This document shows positions 4,817 through 40,373 of a stretch of 64,000 nt of DNA, in pieces. How positions within the stretch are numbered: the first letter of the stretch is position 1; every line of letters starts with the position of its first letter. A program made the translations under genes and the position numbers. The notes under the pieces are model-generated. The model did not search any database and was not told the origin of the DNA. It saw nothing but the letters and a program-made list of their open reading frames with translations. The stretch lies in the NCBI GenBank assembly GCA_030041435.1, contig JASHNW010000015.1, positions 1 to 64,000 on the forward strand, written 5' to 3'. This DNA comes from Acidobacteriaceae bacterium. GTDB lineage: Bacteria; Acidobacteriota; Terriglobia; Terriglobales; Acidobacteriaceae.

Positions 4817-5483
4817 GATGATCCACTGTAAGGTCGGTGAGAAGGTTCCAGTACTCGGCGCTGGCCGGTCGCCTCTGGCGCAGCCACTTCCGCTCGGCCT
4901 CTGTCATCGAATCATGGCAAAGCGTGTCCTCGTTCGCAAGCCTTGAGCGCTCAAGATCTGACTCCACCGCCTCCAACAGCGAACCCGGTTCGGCGGCGGA
5001 CTGCTGTTTGGCGACCTCGCGAGCCAGATGCACGACAAAGCCCAGCCGATTCTGACGGTCATGCACCTTCGCGTGGGATACCAACCACTTCCAGTCGAGG
5101 TCCGCGAACCTGAATGCCAGCCAGGGAAGTGCTTCGACCACCCGGGAATCAAGATCCGGCTCACTCAGCGCGAGGAAGAGGAGCTCGGCCGGATTTCGCT
5201 TCCTGGAGTGGCGCAGGTAAGAAAAGCCAGGATACCCGAGAGCACCGAGCGCGGTTTGAAAATCGGGCAACGATGCGGAGGCATCCTGTGCTTCATGAAG
5301 AGGGAGCGCTGTCGGGGAAGCTTTCAAAACGGAGACGGCCCTGGCCGCAAGTTCAGGAGGGACGGAGCGCCGGCCCTTCTCCATCATGGAGAGATACGCC
5401 TGTGTGACGCCGAGCCGGGCCGCCGTCTTCTGCTGGGTCCAGCCTGCGGTTTGTCTCGCGTCTCTGAGCTCAGGGCCTGTCAT
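4800..5483 (-). CDS. XRE-family helix-turn-helix regulator paired with nucleotidyltransferase
   Basis: A 227-residue protein. Residues 3-55 form a canonical XRE/Cro helix-turn-helix (LRDARQTAGWTQQKTAARLG then VTQAYLSMMEKGRRSVP). The remaining 170 residues form an uncharacterised domain containing LEAVESDLERSRLANEDTL and a tryptophan-rich end. The gene starts 18 bases downstream of an AT-rich perfect palindrome likely bound by its own HTH, which suggests autoregulation as in toxin-antitoxin operons. It overlaps the following nucleotidyltransferase gene. The long C-terminal domain may be the surface that neutralises or recruits the partner. Function beyond DNA binding is inferred. Confidence 0.75.
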   Translation of the reverse strand: MTGPELRDARQTAGWTQQKTAARLGVTQAYLSMMEKGRRSVPPELAARAVSVLKASPTALPLHEAQDASASLPDFQTALGALGYPGFSYLRHSRKRNPAELLFLALSEPDLDSRVVEALPWLAFRFADLDWKWLVSHAKVHDRQNRLGFVVHLAREVAKQQSAAEPGSLLEAVESDLERSRLANEDTLCHDSMTEAERKWLRQRRPASAEYWNLLTDLTVDHLAWAA

Positions 5484-33359: not shown

Positions 33360-35345
33360 TTGGGGCCGGAAGCCGCCAAACCCCTGCAGACGATCCGGTT
33401 CGGCAAGGAATTCGAACTCGATCCGGGACTCTTCGAGCTGCGCCGCTCAGGCCGCGCGGTCAAGCTGGAACGCGTGCCGATGGAAGTGTTGCTGCTGCTG
33501 GTGAACGAACGGGGCCGGGTGGTCAGCCGCCAGGAAATCGCCGATGCGGTGTGGGGCGAGGGCATTTCCCTGGACACCGACAACAGCATCAACGGCGCGA
33601 TCCGGAAGATCCGCCAGGCGCTGAAAGACGACCCGGAGCGCCCCCGCTGCATCCAGACGATAACCGGGCGCGGGTATCGATTCATTGCGCCGGTCGCCAC
33701 GCAGGAAGCTGAGGGCGAAGAGCCCGCCGGGGCTGAGCCGCCGGCGATGGCAGCGCCGGGCGAGGAGTCCGTCGAGGCGCCGATGCAGCCCGAACTGCAG
33801 GCAGCAGCAGTGCGGGCGCCGGCCGCAGAATCTCCGGCCCGTGCGTCGCGTCGCTGGCGGCTCGTTCTGGTTGCCGCCGCCGTGGTGGCGATCGCTGCTG
33901 TGAGCCTCGTGGTGTGGTGGCGCCGGTCAGAGGCCCGCATCGCCTCGGAGCGGACGGTGCGGCTGGCGGTGCTGCCCTTCCAGAACCTGACCGGCGACCC
34001 CGGCCAGGATTACCTCAGCGACGGATTCACGGAAGAGCTGATCACGCAGCTGGGCAGCCTCGATCCCCAGCGCCTGGCGGTGATCGCCCGGACGTCGGTG
34101 ATGTACTACAAGGGCGCGCGGACGCCGCTGCGGCGGATCGCCCAGGACCTGGGCGTCCAGTATGTGCTGGAGGGCAGCGTGCGGCGCGACGCCGAGAGAG
34201 TGCGCATCACGGCGCAGCTGATCCAGGTGCGCGACCAGACGCACCTGTGGGCTCAGGAATACGACCGCTCGCCGGAGGATATGCTGGCCATCCAGAGCGA
34301 AATCGCCCGGGAGATCGCCGGCGAGATCCAGCTGGCGCTGGACAAGCGCGCGACCGGCAGCCGGGCGGAACAGGCCGCGCTGTCGCCGCAGGAATACGAA
34401 GCCTGGGACGCTTATCTGAGAGGGCGCTACCTGTGGAGCAAACGCAGCGAGGACGGGCTCGAGGGAGGTGTGGACTGGTTCCGGAAGGCGATCGCCAAAG
34501 ACCCGAACTTCGCGCCCGCGTGGGCGGGGCTGGCGGACTCGTGGACGATCATGAGCAGCTACGGCTACGTGCCTGCCAGCGTCTACATGCCGCAGGCGCG
34601 GGAGGCCGCGCTCAAGGCGCTGCAACTGGACGGCTCGCTGGCGGAGGCGCACGCGTCGCTGGCGCTGATTGCCGAGAACTACGACTGGGACTGGCAGACG
34701 GCCGAGAAGGAATATCGCCGCGCCATCCAGCTGAACGGGAACTACGCGACCGGACACCAGTGGTTTGCGGAGTGCCTGGCCTTCGAGGGACGCTTCGACG
34801 ACGCGCTGGCGGAGAGCGAACGAGCGCGCTCGCTCGATCCGTTGTCGACGATTATTGCCGCCGACAATGGTGCAATTTACTACTTTGCGCGCCAGTACGA
34901 CCGCGCTGCAGCCCGCTTCCAGAGCGTCCTCGATGTGGATCCGGCGAACGGGCGCGCCCATCTGATCATCGACGTTTATGTGCAGCAGGGCCGGTACGCG
35001 GAGGCGCTGGCGGCGATCCAGCAGTGGCGCCGCCAGGGCGACGGCCCCTGGATCTGGGCGAAGGAGGCTCTGGTGTACGGGCGGTCGGGCGATATGGCGC
35101 GGGCCAGGCAGGCGCTCGAGAAGGTCAGGAAGGCGCATCGGAGCATGGGTCTGGATCCCGATCCGCTGCTCGACGTTGCCTACGCCGGGGTGGACGACCG
35201 GGAAGAGCGGCTGGCGACGCTGGAAGACGCATTTCGACGGCGCAGCAACCTGCCCACGGCGCTGAAAGTCGACCCGCTGTACGATCCTCTGCGCGGCGAT
35301 CCGCGCTTCGCGGCCATGCTGCACCGGGCCGGGCTGGATCGATAG
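33360..35345 (+). CDS. CadC-like winged-helix regulator fused to TolB-like and TPR domains
   Basis: This 661-residue one-component membrane regulator has an OmpR/CadC-type winged helix at about 12-112 (MEVLLLLVNERGRVVSRQEI and NGAIRKIRQALKDDPERPR), an acidic Pro/Ala linker and a membrane helix at about 168-187. A TolB-like domain follows (LAVLPFQNLTGDPGQDYLSD), then TPR repeats to the end. Proteins of this design are numerous in Acidobacteria and convert an extracytoplasmic signal into DNA binding. It starts with TTG at 33360-33362, eight bases after AAGGGGG; no other start upstream fits. The target genes are unknown. Confidence 0.85.
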   Translation: MGPEAAKPLQTIRFGKEFELDPGLFELRRSGRAVKLERVPMEVLLLLVNERGRVVSRQEIADAVWGEGISLDTDNSINGAIRKIRQALKDDPERPRCIQTITGRGYRFIAPVATQEAEGEEPAGAEPPAMAAPGEESVEAPMQPELQAAAVRAPAAESPARASRRWRLVLVAAAVVAIAAVSLVVWWRRSEARIASERTVRLAVLPFQNLTGDPGQDYLSDGFTEELITQLGSLDPQRLAVIARTSVMYYKGARTPLRRIAQDLGVQYVLEGSVRRDAERVRITAQLIQVRDQTHLWAQEYDRSPEDMLAIQSEIAREIAGEIQLALDKRATGSRAEQAALSPQEYEAWDAYLRGRYLWSKRSEDGLEGGVDWFRKAIAKDPNFAPAWAGLADSWTIMSSYGYVPASVYMPQAREAALKALQLDGSLAEAHASLALIAENYDWDWQTAEKEYRRAIQLNGNYATGHQWFAECLAFEGRFDDALAESERARSLDPLSTIIAADNGAIYYFARQYDRAAARFQSVLDVDPANGRAHLIIDVYVQQGRYAEALAAIQQWRRQGDGPWIWAKEALVYGRSGDMARARQALEKVRKAHRSMGLDPDPLLDVAYAGVDDREERLATLEDAFRRRSNLPTALKVDPLYDPLRGDPRFAAMLHRAGLDR

Positions 35346-38000: not shown

Positions 38001-38372
38001 TTACACCTCCTCGCCCTGCGGTTTGCCGCCGGAGTCAAGAATCAGGCCCACGGCGCGGGTGAGCCGCTGCCACTCCGTGGTCTTGTCGCTCAGCTGCTCG
38101 CGCCCTTTGGGCGTGAGGTAGTAGAAGCGCGCGCGGCGGTTGTTCTCGCTGACGCCCCATTTCGCGCGGATCCATTTCTTGTCCTCGAGGCGCTGCAGCG
38201 CGATGTAGAGCGAGCCGTGATCGACGAAGAAGACCTCTTCGGACTGGCGCTGGATGGAGCGGGCTACGCCCTGCCCGTGGCAGGGGCCGAGGAGGAGGGT
38301 GCGCAGAATGAGCAGGTCGAGAGTGCCCTGCAGCAGCGCGATGCGGTCGGGGTTGCTGTCCTGGGTTGACAT
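38001..38372 (-). CDS. PadR-family transcriptional regulator
   Basis: This 123-residue winged-helix regulator has the PadR core at about 8-85: [20 protein letters not shown] followed by [20 protein letters not shown], the [20 protein letters not shown] recognition/wing region, and [15 protein letters not shown]. It forms an operon with the downstream ADOP permease and probably represses it in response to a small molecule. The ATG at 38372 lies within a large inverted repeat, the probable operator. A TTG three codons upstream is a less likely start. Confidence 0.9.
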
Positions 38373-38413
38373 TCGACCCAAGTATGGGCGCAGCTTGGGT
38401 AGAATGTCAACCC
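38363..38413. promoter_or_regulatory. PadR operator with 20-bp arms, overlapping a probable leaderless promoter
   Basis: GGGTTGACATTCGACCCAAG (38363-38382) and its inverted partner at 38394-38413 match at 19 of 20 positions around an 11-base spacer. On the minus strand the right arm contains TTGACA, followed after 18 bases by CATACT. That places the transcript start within a few bases of the padR ATG (38370-38372), where no ribosome binding site is visible. PadR binding here would block its own promoter. Confidence 0.7.
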
Positions 38414-38660
38414 GAACGCTGCAGGAGCGTATCGGTCAACGGGAGGGTTGAGCGGGCGCGCCGGGAGGCGGACGGCCGGGGGAAGTCCCGGCGGCGGGTC
38501 GCGGCGACCGTGCACTCGATCCGGAAGGCCACGGGAACTCAGGACTTGCGATTAATGCGCGGTTGCCTGCCGCCGATAGAGTTCAATACAGGCGCATCGG
38601 CCGCCCGGCCGGGCCGGGAAACCGGAGCTGCGCCTGAACGACAGCGGGAAACGAGCAGGC

Positions 38661-40373
38661 ATGTCGCGAGAGCAGAGACGCGAGAGCGGTGAGGAGTGGT
38701 ACCGGTACGCGCTGACGCTGGAGGCCTCGCAGGAGGGCTTCTGGGACTGGGATCTGGCGACGGGCCGGCTGTGGGGATCGAACCGGTGGCAGTCGATTAC
38801 CGGGGTGGACGAGCCGTGCACGCGGCTGGAGACCTGGATGGAGCGGGTGCATCCGTTCGACAAGCCGCGGCTGGAGGCGGATCTGCGGGCGATACGGGCG
38901 GGCAAGTGCAGCAAGCTGCGCAACGAGCATCGCATCCGGCACCGCAACGGGCAGTGGCGCTGGGTGCTGGCGCATGGCGTGGCGGCCCAGGACGGCGGGG
39001 GGCGGGTGACGCGTGTGGCCGGCTCGCTGACCGACATGACCGAGTGCCGCACGGCGGATGCGCTGACCGGGCTGCCCAATCGCATCTTCTTTCTGGATTA
39101 TCTCGAGCACCGCATGGACCGGGGACGCCAGCGCGGAGACTGGGATTTCGCGGTGCTGGCGGTGGCGCTGGATCGCTTCGACCGGGTGAACGAGGTGCTG
39201 GGCGCGAGCGGCGGCGATCGCCTGCTGATGGAAACGGCCATGCGCATGCAGGCCATGTTGCCGGAAGGCTCGATCGCAGCGCGGCTGAACGGGGCGGAGT
39301 TCCTGGTGTGTCTCGAATCGGTGCAGAACGATGCCGAGGCGGTGGAGTTTGCGGCGCAGACGGCGGGAGCGGTGGGCGAGCCGTTTGTGTGGCGCGGCCA
39401 TCGCATGACGCCGCAGCTGGCGATCGGCATTGCCAGGGCGGAGGCGACCTATGCGCATCCTGAAGACCTGATGAGCGACGCGGAGAGCGCACTGGCCCAT
39501 GCGCGCAGGGGCGAGCCCTCCGGCGTGGTGTGCTATTCGCGCGGCATGCGGGAGCAGGCGCTGGAGCGGCTGGAGCTGGAGGCCGATCTGGAGCGGGCCA
39601 TCCGCCAGGGCGAGCTGACCATGTTCTACCAGCCGGAAGTGGACCTGCGGACGGGACGCATCATCGGCTTCGAGGCGCTGGTGCGCTGGAAGCACGCGCG
39701 CCGCGGGCTGCTGCCGCCGGCCGAGTTTATTCCGCTGGCCGAGGAGACGGGGCTGATTTTGCCGCTGGGCGACTGGGGCATGGCGGAAGCGTGCAGGCAG
39801 CTGGTGGAGTGGCGGACCAGGGGCCATGCGGAGCTGAAGAGCGCGCGCATGAGCGTCAACCTCTCCGCGCGGCAGTTCGAGCGGCCCGATCTGGTGGAAC
39901 GGGTGCGCCAGGTGCTGGACCAGACCGGGCTGAACGACGGCGCGCTGCGGCTGGAGGTGACGGAGAGCAGCCTCATCGCCGATGCGGCGGCGGCGGCGAA
40001 GACCATGCGCGAGCTGGGCGCGCTGGGCGTGGGCCTGCACATGGACGATTTCGGCGTGGGCTACAGCTCGCTGCATTATCTGCAGCGGTTTCCCTTCGAC
40101 ACGCTGAAGATCGACCGCTCGTTTGTGCGCGGGGTGGTCCACGACCGGGAGTCGCGGCAGATCGTGCGCAGCATCCTCGATTTGGCGAAATCGTTCGGCA
40201 TGGACGTGGTGGCGGAAGGAATCGAGGACGCGGAGCAGCTGCGGGAGCTCCAGTCGATGGGCTGCCCCTGCGGTCAGGGATACTACTTCGCGCGGCCCAT
40301 GGATCCTGGGGCCATTAGCGAGCTGGTGGCGGCGCGGGGATTCACCCATGAAGCGATTCCTTTGCCCGTGTGA
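38661..40373 (+). CDS. PAS-GGDEF-EAL protein, probable c-di-GMP phosphodiesterase
   Basis: A 570-residue cytoplasmic signalling protein. A PAS/PAC sensor spans about 15-130 (GFWDWDLATGRLWGS, then WRWVLAHGVAAQDG). A GGDEF-like domain at about 131-290 has its signature changed to NGAEF (210-214), so cyclase activity is unlikely. An EAL domain at about 305-555 keeps the key residues: EAL at 338-340, the NLSARQF strand, EVTES, MDDFGVGYSS, KIDRSFV and QGYYFARP. It probably hydrolyses c-di-GMP in response to a signal bound by the PAS domain, with the degenerate GGDEF perhaps binding GTP as an allosteric module. No target is evident from the neighbours. Confidence 0.88.
   Translation: MSREQRRESGEEWYRYALTLEASQEGFWDWDLATGRLWGSNRWQSITGVDEPCTRLETWMERVHPFDKPRLEADLRAIRAGKCSKLRNEHRIRHRNGQWRWVLAHGVAAQDGGGRVTRVAGSLTDMTECRTADALTGLPNRIFFLDYLEHRMDRGRQRGDWDFAVLAVALDRFDRVNEVLGASGGDRLLMETAMRMQAMLPEGSIAARLNGAEFLVCLESVQNDAEAVEFAAQTAGAVGEPFVWRGHRMTPQLAIGIARAEATYAHPEDLMSDAESALAHARRGEPSGVVCYSRGMREQALERLELEADLERAIRQGELTMFYQPEVDLRTGRIIGFEALVRWKHARRGLLPPAEFIPLAEETGLILPLGDWGMAEACRQLVEWRTRGHAELKSARMSVNLSARQFERPDLVERVRQVLDQTGLNDGALRLEVTESSLIADAAAAAKTMRELGALGVGLHMDDFGVGYSSLHYLQRFPFDTLKIDRSFVRGVVHDRESRQIVRSILDLAKSFGMDVVAEGIEDAEQLRELQSMGCPCGQGYYFARPMDPGAISELVAARGFTHEAIPLPV

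Follow-up and report, generated by a model that had tools for sequence, protein, structure and literature searches.

What does a palindrome laid over the start codon of a small padR gene do for the permease gene that follows it? This question is raised by a 64,000-nucleotide stretch of an Acidobacteriaceae genome (assembly GCA_030041435.1, contig JASHNW010000015.1), hereafter the window. A first-pass annotation had proposed a very large PadR operator enclosing a probable leaderless promoter between positions 38001 and 38413, a range that corresponds to padR plus the operator. A search of the open-licence literature in PubMed Central found no described operator or transcript start for acidobacterial PadR (TIGR03433) or ADOP (TIGR03434) proteins, and passages of PMC3174227 mention neither PadR nor ADOP.

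Results

The padR-ADOP locus

In the window, padR is followed by the ADOP gene, with 2 nt between them (Table 1). The PadR protein scored 56.9 bits against the PF03551 profile (cut-off 27) and 138.9 bits against TIGR03433 padR_acidobact (cut-off 101.8), and the ADOP protein scored 791.9 bits against TIGR03434 (cut-off 622.3). Both gene products belong to the respective TIGR families, which are protein models only. No in-frame ATG, GTG or TTG was found between the annotated padR ATG (38372-38370, minus strand) and the PadR domain, and an in-frame TTG lies three codons 5' of this ATG. Divergent from padR, with 288 bp between the two start codons, is a gene for a PAS-GGDEF-EAL protein (38661-40373, plus strand). 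At the other end of the locus, a gene for a winged-helix Trans_reg_C protein with TPR repeats (33360-35345, plus strand) points towards the ADOP gene.

Table 1. Features of the padR-ADOP region (positions in the window)
Feature	Position	Strand	Basis or remark
padR, 123 aa	38001..38372	-	PF03551 and TIGR03433 profile matches
ADOP permease, 882 aa	35350..37998	-	TIGR03434 profile match
Shine-Dalgarno GAGGAGG for ADOP, strong, in the last codons of padR	38006..38012	-	sequence reading
Whole 51-bp inverted repeat, arms 38363-38382 / 38394-38413	38363..38413	.	repeat search and chance test
-35 box TTGACA	38405..38410	-	promoter scan
-10 box CATACT	38381..38386	-	promoter scan; 8 nt before ATG
Predicted transcript start, 0-2 nt leader	38372..38374	-	inferred from -10 spacing
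Operator site 1, dyad GGGT-N9-ACCC (core 38397-38413), centred on the -35 word TTGACAT	38394..38416	-	putative; conserved in 51 padR genes
Operator site 2, same dyad (core 38363-38379), centred on ATG, into codons 2-4	38360..38382	-	putative; wobble constraint in codons 3-4

The inverted repeat and the promoter

Read on the minus strand, positions 38413-38363 are GGGTTGACATTCTACCC - AAGCTGCGCCCATACTT - GGGTCGAATGTCAACCC. A repeat finder returned the two 20-nt arms that the first-pass annotation had described, with 19 of 20 positions paired (95% complementary) and an 11-nt gap. The padR start codon lies inside the downstream arm and not between the arms. Repeats of this quality (at least 19/20 paired, gap of at most 30) occur once in the 64-kb window and in none of 12 first-order Markov windows; at a threshold of 16/20, there were 15 in the window versus 43 summed over the 12 Markov windows. 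The proposed promoter, TTGACA-N18-CATACT, was also recovered just before the padR ATG. It agrees with the consensus at 10 of 12 positions and is the sole sigma-70-like site on either strand between 37900 and 38700, the mean for shuffled sequences being 0.0. The palindrome and the promoter are real, and a chance origin is unlikely.

The -10 box is weak (4/6), and its 8-nt gap to the ATG would permit a 2-nt leader. In leaderless genes, the -10 box has been reported to precede the start by about 12 nt, and the predicted share of such genes averages 13.3% over three genomes of acidobacteria (PMC3160421). At 14 nt from the ATG, the first base of CATACT is slightly beyond this typical distance. As had also been claimed, padR lacks a ribosome binding site, in that no GGAG-type or Shine-Dalgarno word precedes its ATG in the window.

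Conservation in related padR genes

The upstream region was compared in 51 padR genes, namely that of the window and 50 relatives with 61-85% identity, whose phylogenetic independence is limited. This set comprises 48 of the 69 rows of the listing of relatives (the window included) plus L032, L033 and L035. The second tandem copy of G002:C485, with a decayed promoter and the start ATA, was left out, and each region was read from the aligned ATG. We found TTGAC(A) 37 nt before the ATG in 35 of the 51 genes, 38 nt in 12, 36 nt in two, and 39 and 40 nt in one each. A simple scorer placed the end of a -10-like hexamer 7-9 nt ahead of the ATG in 48/51 genes, with 8 nt in 42/51. Invariant throughout are T(-9), which is the last -10 base, G(-5), the ATG itself and C(+7 to +9; A=0), that is, CCC at codons 3-4. 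Upstream of about -44, no conservation was seen in the 51 genes. A GGAG, GAGG, AGGA or GGGG word occurs between -20 and -3 of padR in 7/51, and a GGAG/GAGG-type word is present at the padR stop in 48/51. In 50 cases ADOP lies directly downstream, and in 42 of these its start, as placed by script, is at most 6 nt from the padR stop; L083 has no ADOP within 1.5 kb.

The outer arms pair in 74.5% of cells across the 51 genes, a share that drops to 34.8% or less once they are shifted by 1-4 bases. Per gene, 12-19 of the 20 positions are paired: 14-16 in 35 genes, 12-13 in nine, and 19 in four including the window. The first-pass annotation had named conservation of the palindrome in other PadR-ADOP loci as a check, and this is borne out by the promoter-to-ATG geometry (51/51, with ADOP next in 50); the 19/20 pairing is limited to the four. 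One arm pair is complementary in all 50 distinct rows (C-G in 30, T-A in 20). On the tree, one double change, with one change on each side, accounts for this fully covarying pair, which therefore counts as one event; two other pairs have too few independent cases. Covariation as a proof is weakened accordingly. In G002:C485, the tandem padR copies (L033/L093) are 77% and 72% identical to that of the window, and the upstream copy has lost its -35 box and starts with ATA.

In a set of named genomes, the arrangement is kept in 41 of 44 loci, or in 29 of the 32 new ones, as 12 of the 44 repeat sequences among the 51; a 45th locus, L193 (29% identity), was left out. Cultured relatives with the element include Terracidiphilus gabretensis S55, Edaphobacter aggregans DSM 19364 and Granulicella sp. 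S156. The exceptions are L172, with a TTTACA variant, L191, a frameshifted relic, and L192, which codes for a 46%-identical protein. The operator region of L179, in a record named Planctomycetota, is identical over 52 nt to an acidobacterial one, and this contig may be mis-binned.

Two dyads within the palindrome

Although the palindrome is real, a pair of similar dyads, spaced by about 33 bp, describes it better than one very large operator does. Taken singly, either arm forms an imperfect dyad, with the consensus TTGGGT-N9-ACCCAA in the 51 padR genes. In the window, GGGT-N9-ACCC is present in full at both sites, and only this GGGT/ACCC part is complete. The distance from centre to centre is 33 bp in 35/51 genes, 34 bp in 12/51, 32 bp in 2/51, and 35 and 36 bp in 1/51 each; the window has 34 bp. 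In site 1, the bases at +-5 pair in 51 genes and those at +-6 in 50; in site 2, they do so in 40 and 51, respectively. The +-10 bases pair in 39 (site 1) and 49 (site 2) of the 51, those at +-9 in only 23 and 25, and those at +-4 in 1 and 8. The reverse complement of TTGACAT is ATGTCAA, so that the inverted operator copy supplies the start codon.

Two conserved tyrosines, which the curated family definition does not include, have been proposed as a signature of the PadR DNA-binding domain (PMC6457526). By our own reading of the signature positions, the second tyrosine is kept in the window PadR (GSLY / GALY) and the first is replaced by Q, where the aligned 1xma and 5dym have Y. All 51 padR rows have HGQG where 1xma and 5dym carry this tyrosine. 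The glutamine of HGQG is perhaps linked to the unusual half-site.

Constraint on the first codons of padR

Codon 3 is ACC, TCC or CCC; it ends in C in 51/51 genes, versus 33-34% elsewhere in these genes. At codon 4, CAA is found in 40, CGA in nine and CAG in two, against a background in the rest of the padR genes of 28% CAA among Gln codons and 9% CGA among CGN codons. Judged from these codons, the wobble bases are explained by the putative operator, and the constraint acts at the level of DNA. Apparently, it is the operator written into these codons that makes PadR start with M-x-[T/S/P]-[Q/R]. When the window PadR is aligned with solved PadR structures, most of the matches start at about residue 13, which leaves the N-terminal residues outside the aligned domain.

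The same palindrome could be read as an RNA hairpin on a longer transcript started upstream, which would hide the start codon and act by translational control or attenuation. Folded as RNA, the 51 nt reach -30.1 kcal/mol (z -7.65), as is expected of any such repeat. However, a single promoter-like site was found in the region, and transcription from it would begin within the repeat, so that the upstream arm would not be transcribed, and the 51 genes show no conservation upstream of the element. Moreover, G-U makes up 32 of the 255 mismatched cells (12.5%), below all 300 shuffles (15.3-20.3%). This depletion speaks against an RNA stem, which should tolerate G-U, and an Rfam search of the element gave no match at the gathering thresholds. 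Given the G-U depletion and the position of the promoter inside the repeat, we rejected the hairpin as highly improbable. Next to no credence can be given to the reading that dispenses with an operator and ascribes the conservation to the promoter and the protein N-terminus only. The -35 box, the -10 box and the ATG do explain part of the conserved columns, whereas the ACCC of the spacer, the GGT before the ATG and the wobble bases of codons 3-4 are conserved without a promoter or protein reason, and the structure matches mostly begin past the residues that the operator encodes.

Occurrence of the element across genomes

The pattern TTGACATNNNACCC-N14-20-GGTNNNATGNCNNCCC, which is blind to the protein, matched 36 of the 399 class genomes and 7 of the 396 genomes of a phylum sample, two overlapping samples with the window genome included. 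The reversed pattern was absent among the matches listed. Surroundings were available for 34 distinct sites, and 33 of them begin a padR (that of L123 on the other strand), PadR being judged here by N-terminal signature words and not by profile. At the remaining site, in G767, the element ends about 54 nt before an ADOP-like gene, with no padR between them. This gene (L142, G767:C27 1504-3046) scores 382.6 bits in the available stretch versus the cut-off of 622.3, and is apparently shortened inside. Elsewhere, G767 has a padR with the same arrangement (L145).

The genome of the window contains only three exact GGGTNGANNNTCNACCC sites, two at this locus and one at a padR relic, and six single sites with one mismatch. 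A candidate trans target, G000:C10:8451, proved to be a padR relic that stops early, and was rejected. In L089 (G000:C10, about 4923-5021), the relic of a second padR, the right half of the operator is intact and reading stops after about 20 codons. We also discarded a regulon of single sites in this genome: with at most two mismatches, the count of GGGTNGANNNTCNACCC is 182 per strand, below the 266 of the reversed control.

Other PadR paralogues

By PF03551 matches, the genome of the window has 30 PadR genes; another genome has 51 matches to the window PadR. Upstream of the 30 genes, the core TNGANNNTCNA occurs exactly 18 times in 3600 positions at a background of 4.6e-5 per position, a count that is partly circular because the motif was read off those sequences. 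Eleven of the 30 genes have at least one exact TNGANNNTCNA box, and 11 lack a box even when one mismatch is tolerated. With the same tolerance, eight carry a pair of boxes spaced by 31-34 bp, the first box being on TTGAC in five, and pairs spaced by 15, 44 or 47 bp occur in some paralogues. We also searched 23 of the 25 loci from relatives numbered L036 to L060 (L059 and L060 were left out); none of them belongs to the first set, although relatives of the paralogues in the window genome are among them. Here, TNGANNNTCNA occurs exactly 24 times in 2760 positions and is present in 15/23 loci, compared with none for the reversed box and 2 in 29887 for the downstream background.

A box centred on the start codon (at most two mismatches) with TTGAC 25-50 nt upstream is found in 2/30 genes of the window genome, the window padR and G000:C90:40942, and, by this loose criterion, in 7/23 of the other loci. 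Among these seven, three have a spacing of 36-40 nt, one is centred on GTG, and L044 and L046 have a second possible start downstream. Many of the remaining PadR loci have a Shine-Dalgarno-like word before the start instead. The flanks around the common core differ between different PadR genes. In two PadR genes, L038 (about 1418-1470) and L041, CCCATAGTCATTCGAG is present twice in direct, not inverted, orientation at a spacing of 32-33 bp.

Discussion

Our analysis indicates that the 51-bp element very probably combines the promoter, a double operator and the translation start of an autoregulated padR-ADOP operon. The first-pass annotation is right in substance. From the sequence, the geometry, the conservation and the DNA-level constraint of the element, we infer that PadR itself is most likely the binder. 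One PadR dimer would sit on each dyad, about three helical turns apart, with one over the -35 box and the other over the ATG. Bound there, the two dimers would keep RNA polymerase from either end of the core promoter, with the result that the output of the operon, PadR included, would drop as PadR rises. The transcript is predicted to begin 0-2 nt before the ATG, and hence padR would be translated leaderlessly and probably poorly. ADOP would be translated well from its own Shine-Dalgarno site at the padR stop codon, and in this way a small repressor pool would control a well-translated permease. Repression would be lifted by a putative PadR ligand.

It is quite unlikely that the operator serves a regulator other than the PadR that it precedes, or a paralogue among the 30 PadR genes. 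The paralogues share the core box, which makes cross-binding possible, and the ADOP-like gene of G767 keeps the element without a padR, implying either a regulator that acts from elsewhere or a decaying locus. However, the exact element goes with this padR subgroup at 33 of the 34 sites, the padR relic is the only further exact site in the same genome, and the flanks around the core are not those of the other PadR genes. As to how PadR would bind, a tetramer or a loop could occupy the 51 bp as a single unit, as opposed to two independent dimer sites. The narrow range of the dyad spacing (32-36 bp) and the better fit of inverted over slid arms would be in keeping with this. We nevertheless regard it as unlikely: taken alone, either arm is a dyad of 17 bp or slightly more, near the size of known PadR sites, the box pairs of some paralogues are spaced 15, 44 or 47 bp apart, and cdPadR1 was found to bind its own promoter at two separate inverted repeats (PMC5050560).

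On the sequence, the padR-ADOP element is a well-conserved and compact form of an operon type that is already known, the autoregulated leaderless operon. In the acuR-acuI-dddL operon of Rhodobacter sphaeroides, the transcript was mapped to start exactly at the acuR AUG, and an acuR translational fusion gave about 7.5% of acuI (PMC3017554). As in the padR-ADOP locus, the repressor gene comes first and has no Shine-Dalgarno site, an inverted-repeat operator lies over the promoter, and the downstream genes have Shine-Dalgarno sites; in the acuR system these genes are better translated (PMC3017554). Unlike PadR, AcuR belongs to the TetR family, and its operator has, in place of two dyads, one inverted repeat of 8 bp with a gap of 6 bp. 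Moreover, the acuR operator is described as overlapping the promoter, whereas here one dyad is centred on the start codon (PMC3017554).

Within the PadR family, the motif ATGT-N8-10-ACAT has been described in palindromes in the regulators' own promoters (PMC3506622, PMC4534193). The locus resembles the LmrR and PadR systems in that a PadR-family gene has palindromic sites in its own promoter, and LmrR promoters are described as binding more than one dimer. It differs from them in its GGGT/ACCC half-sites (consensus TTGGGT/ACCCAA), the N9 spacer and the presence of two dyads (PMC3506622, PMC4534193). The canonical motif is absent from the window element, where ACAT and ATGT are both present but 31 nt apart. 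The cdPadR1 system of Clostridium difficile also has two inverted repeats in its own promoter, and autoregulation has been proposed; its sites, however, are TACT-N11/12-AGTA with an AT-rich core, and one repeat is reported to lie 25 bp upstream of the reading frame (PMC5050560).

We lean, if only slightly, towards a wider reading of these data. A PadR dyad on the -35 box would be repeated in inverted orientation on the ATG, with the operator copy creating both the ATG and the first residues M-x-[T/S/P]-[Q/R], and paralogues that combine the core TNGANNNTCNA with private flanks would provide several insulated, self-limiting switches per cell. The N-terminal residues of a protein are here apparently dictated by a putative DNA-binding site. 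Acidobacteria are frequent members of soil communities, and a single genome can contain dozens of PadR genes. An element that fixes promoter, operator and start codon together would allow targets to be predicted from sequence and start-codon annotation to be corrected. It would also offer a clean test of how the regulator-to-transporter ratio is set by a repressor that sits on a leaderless start codon. Altogether, a compact arrangement kept in dozens of related bacteria would make a poorly studied class of switches predictable and testable.
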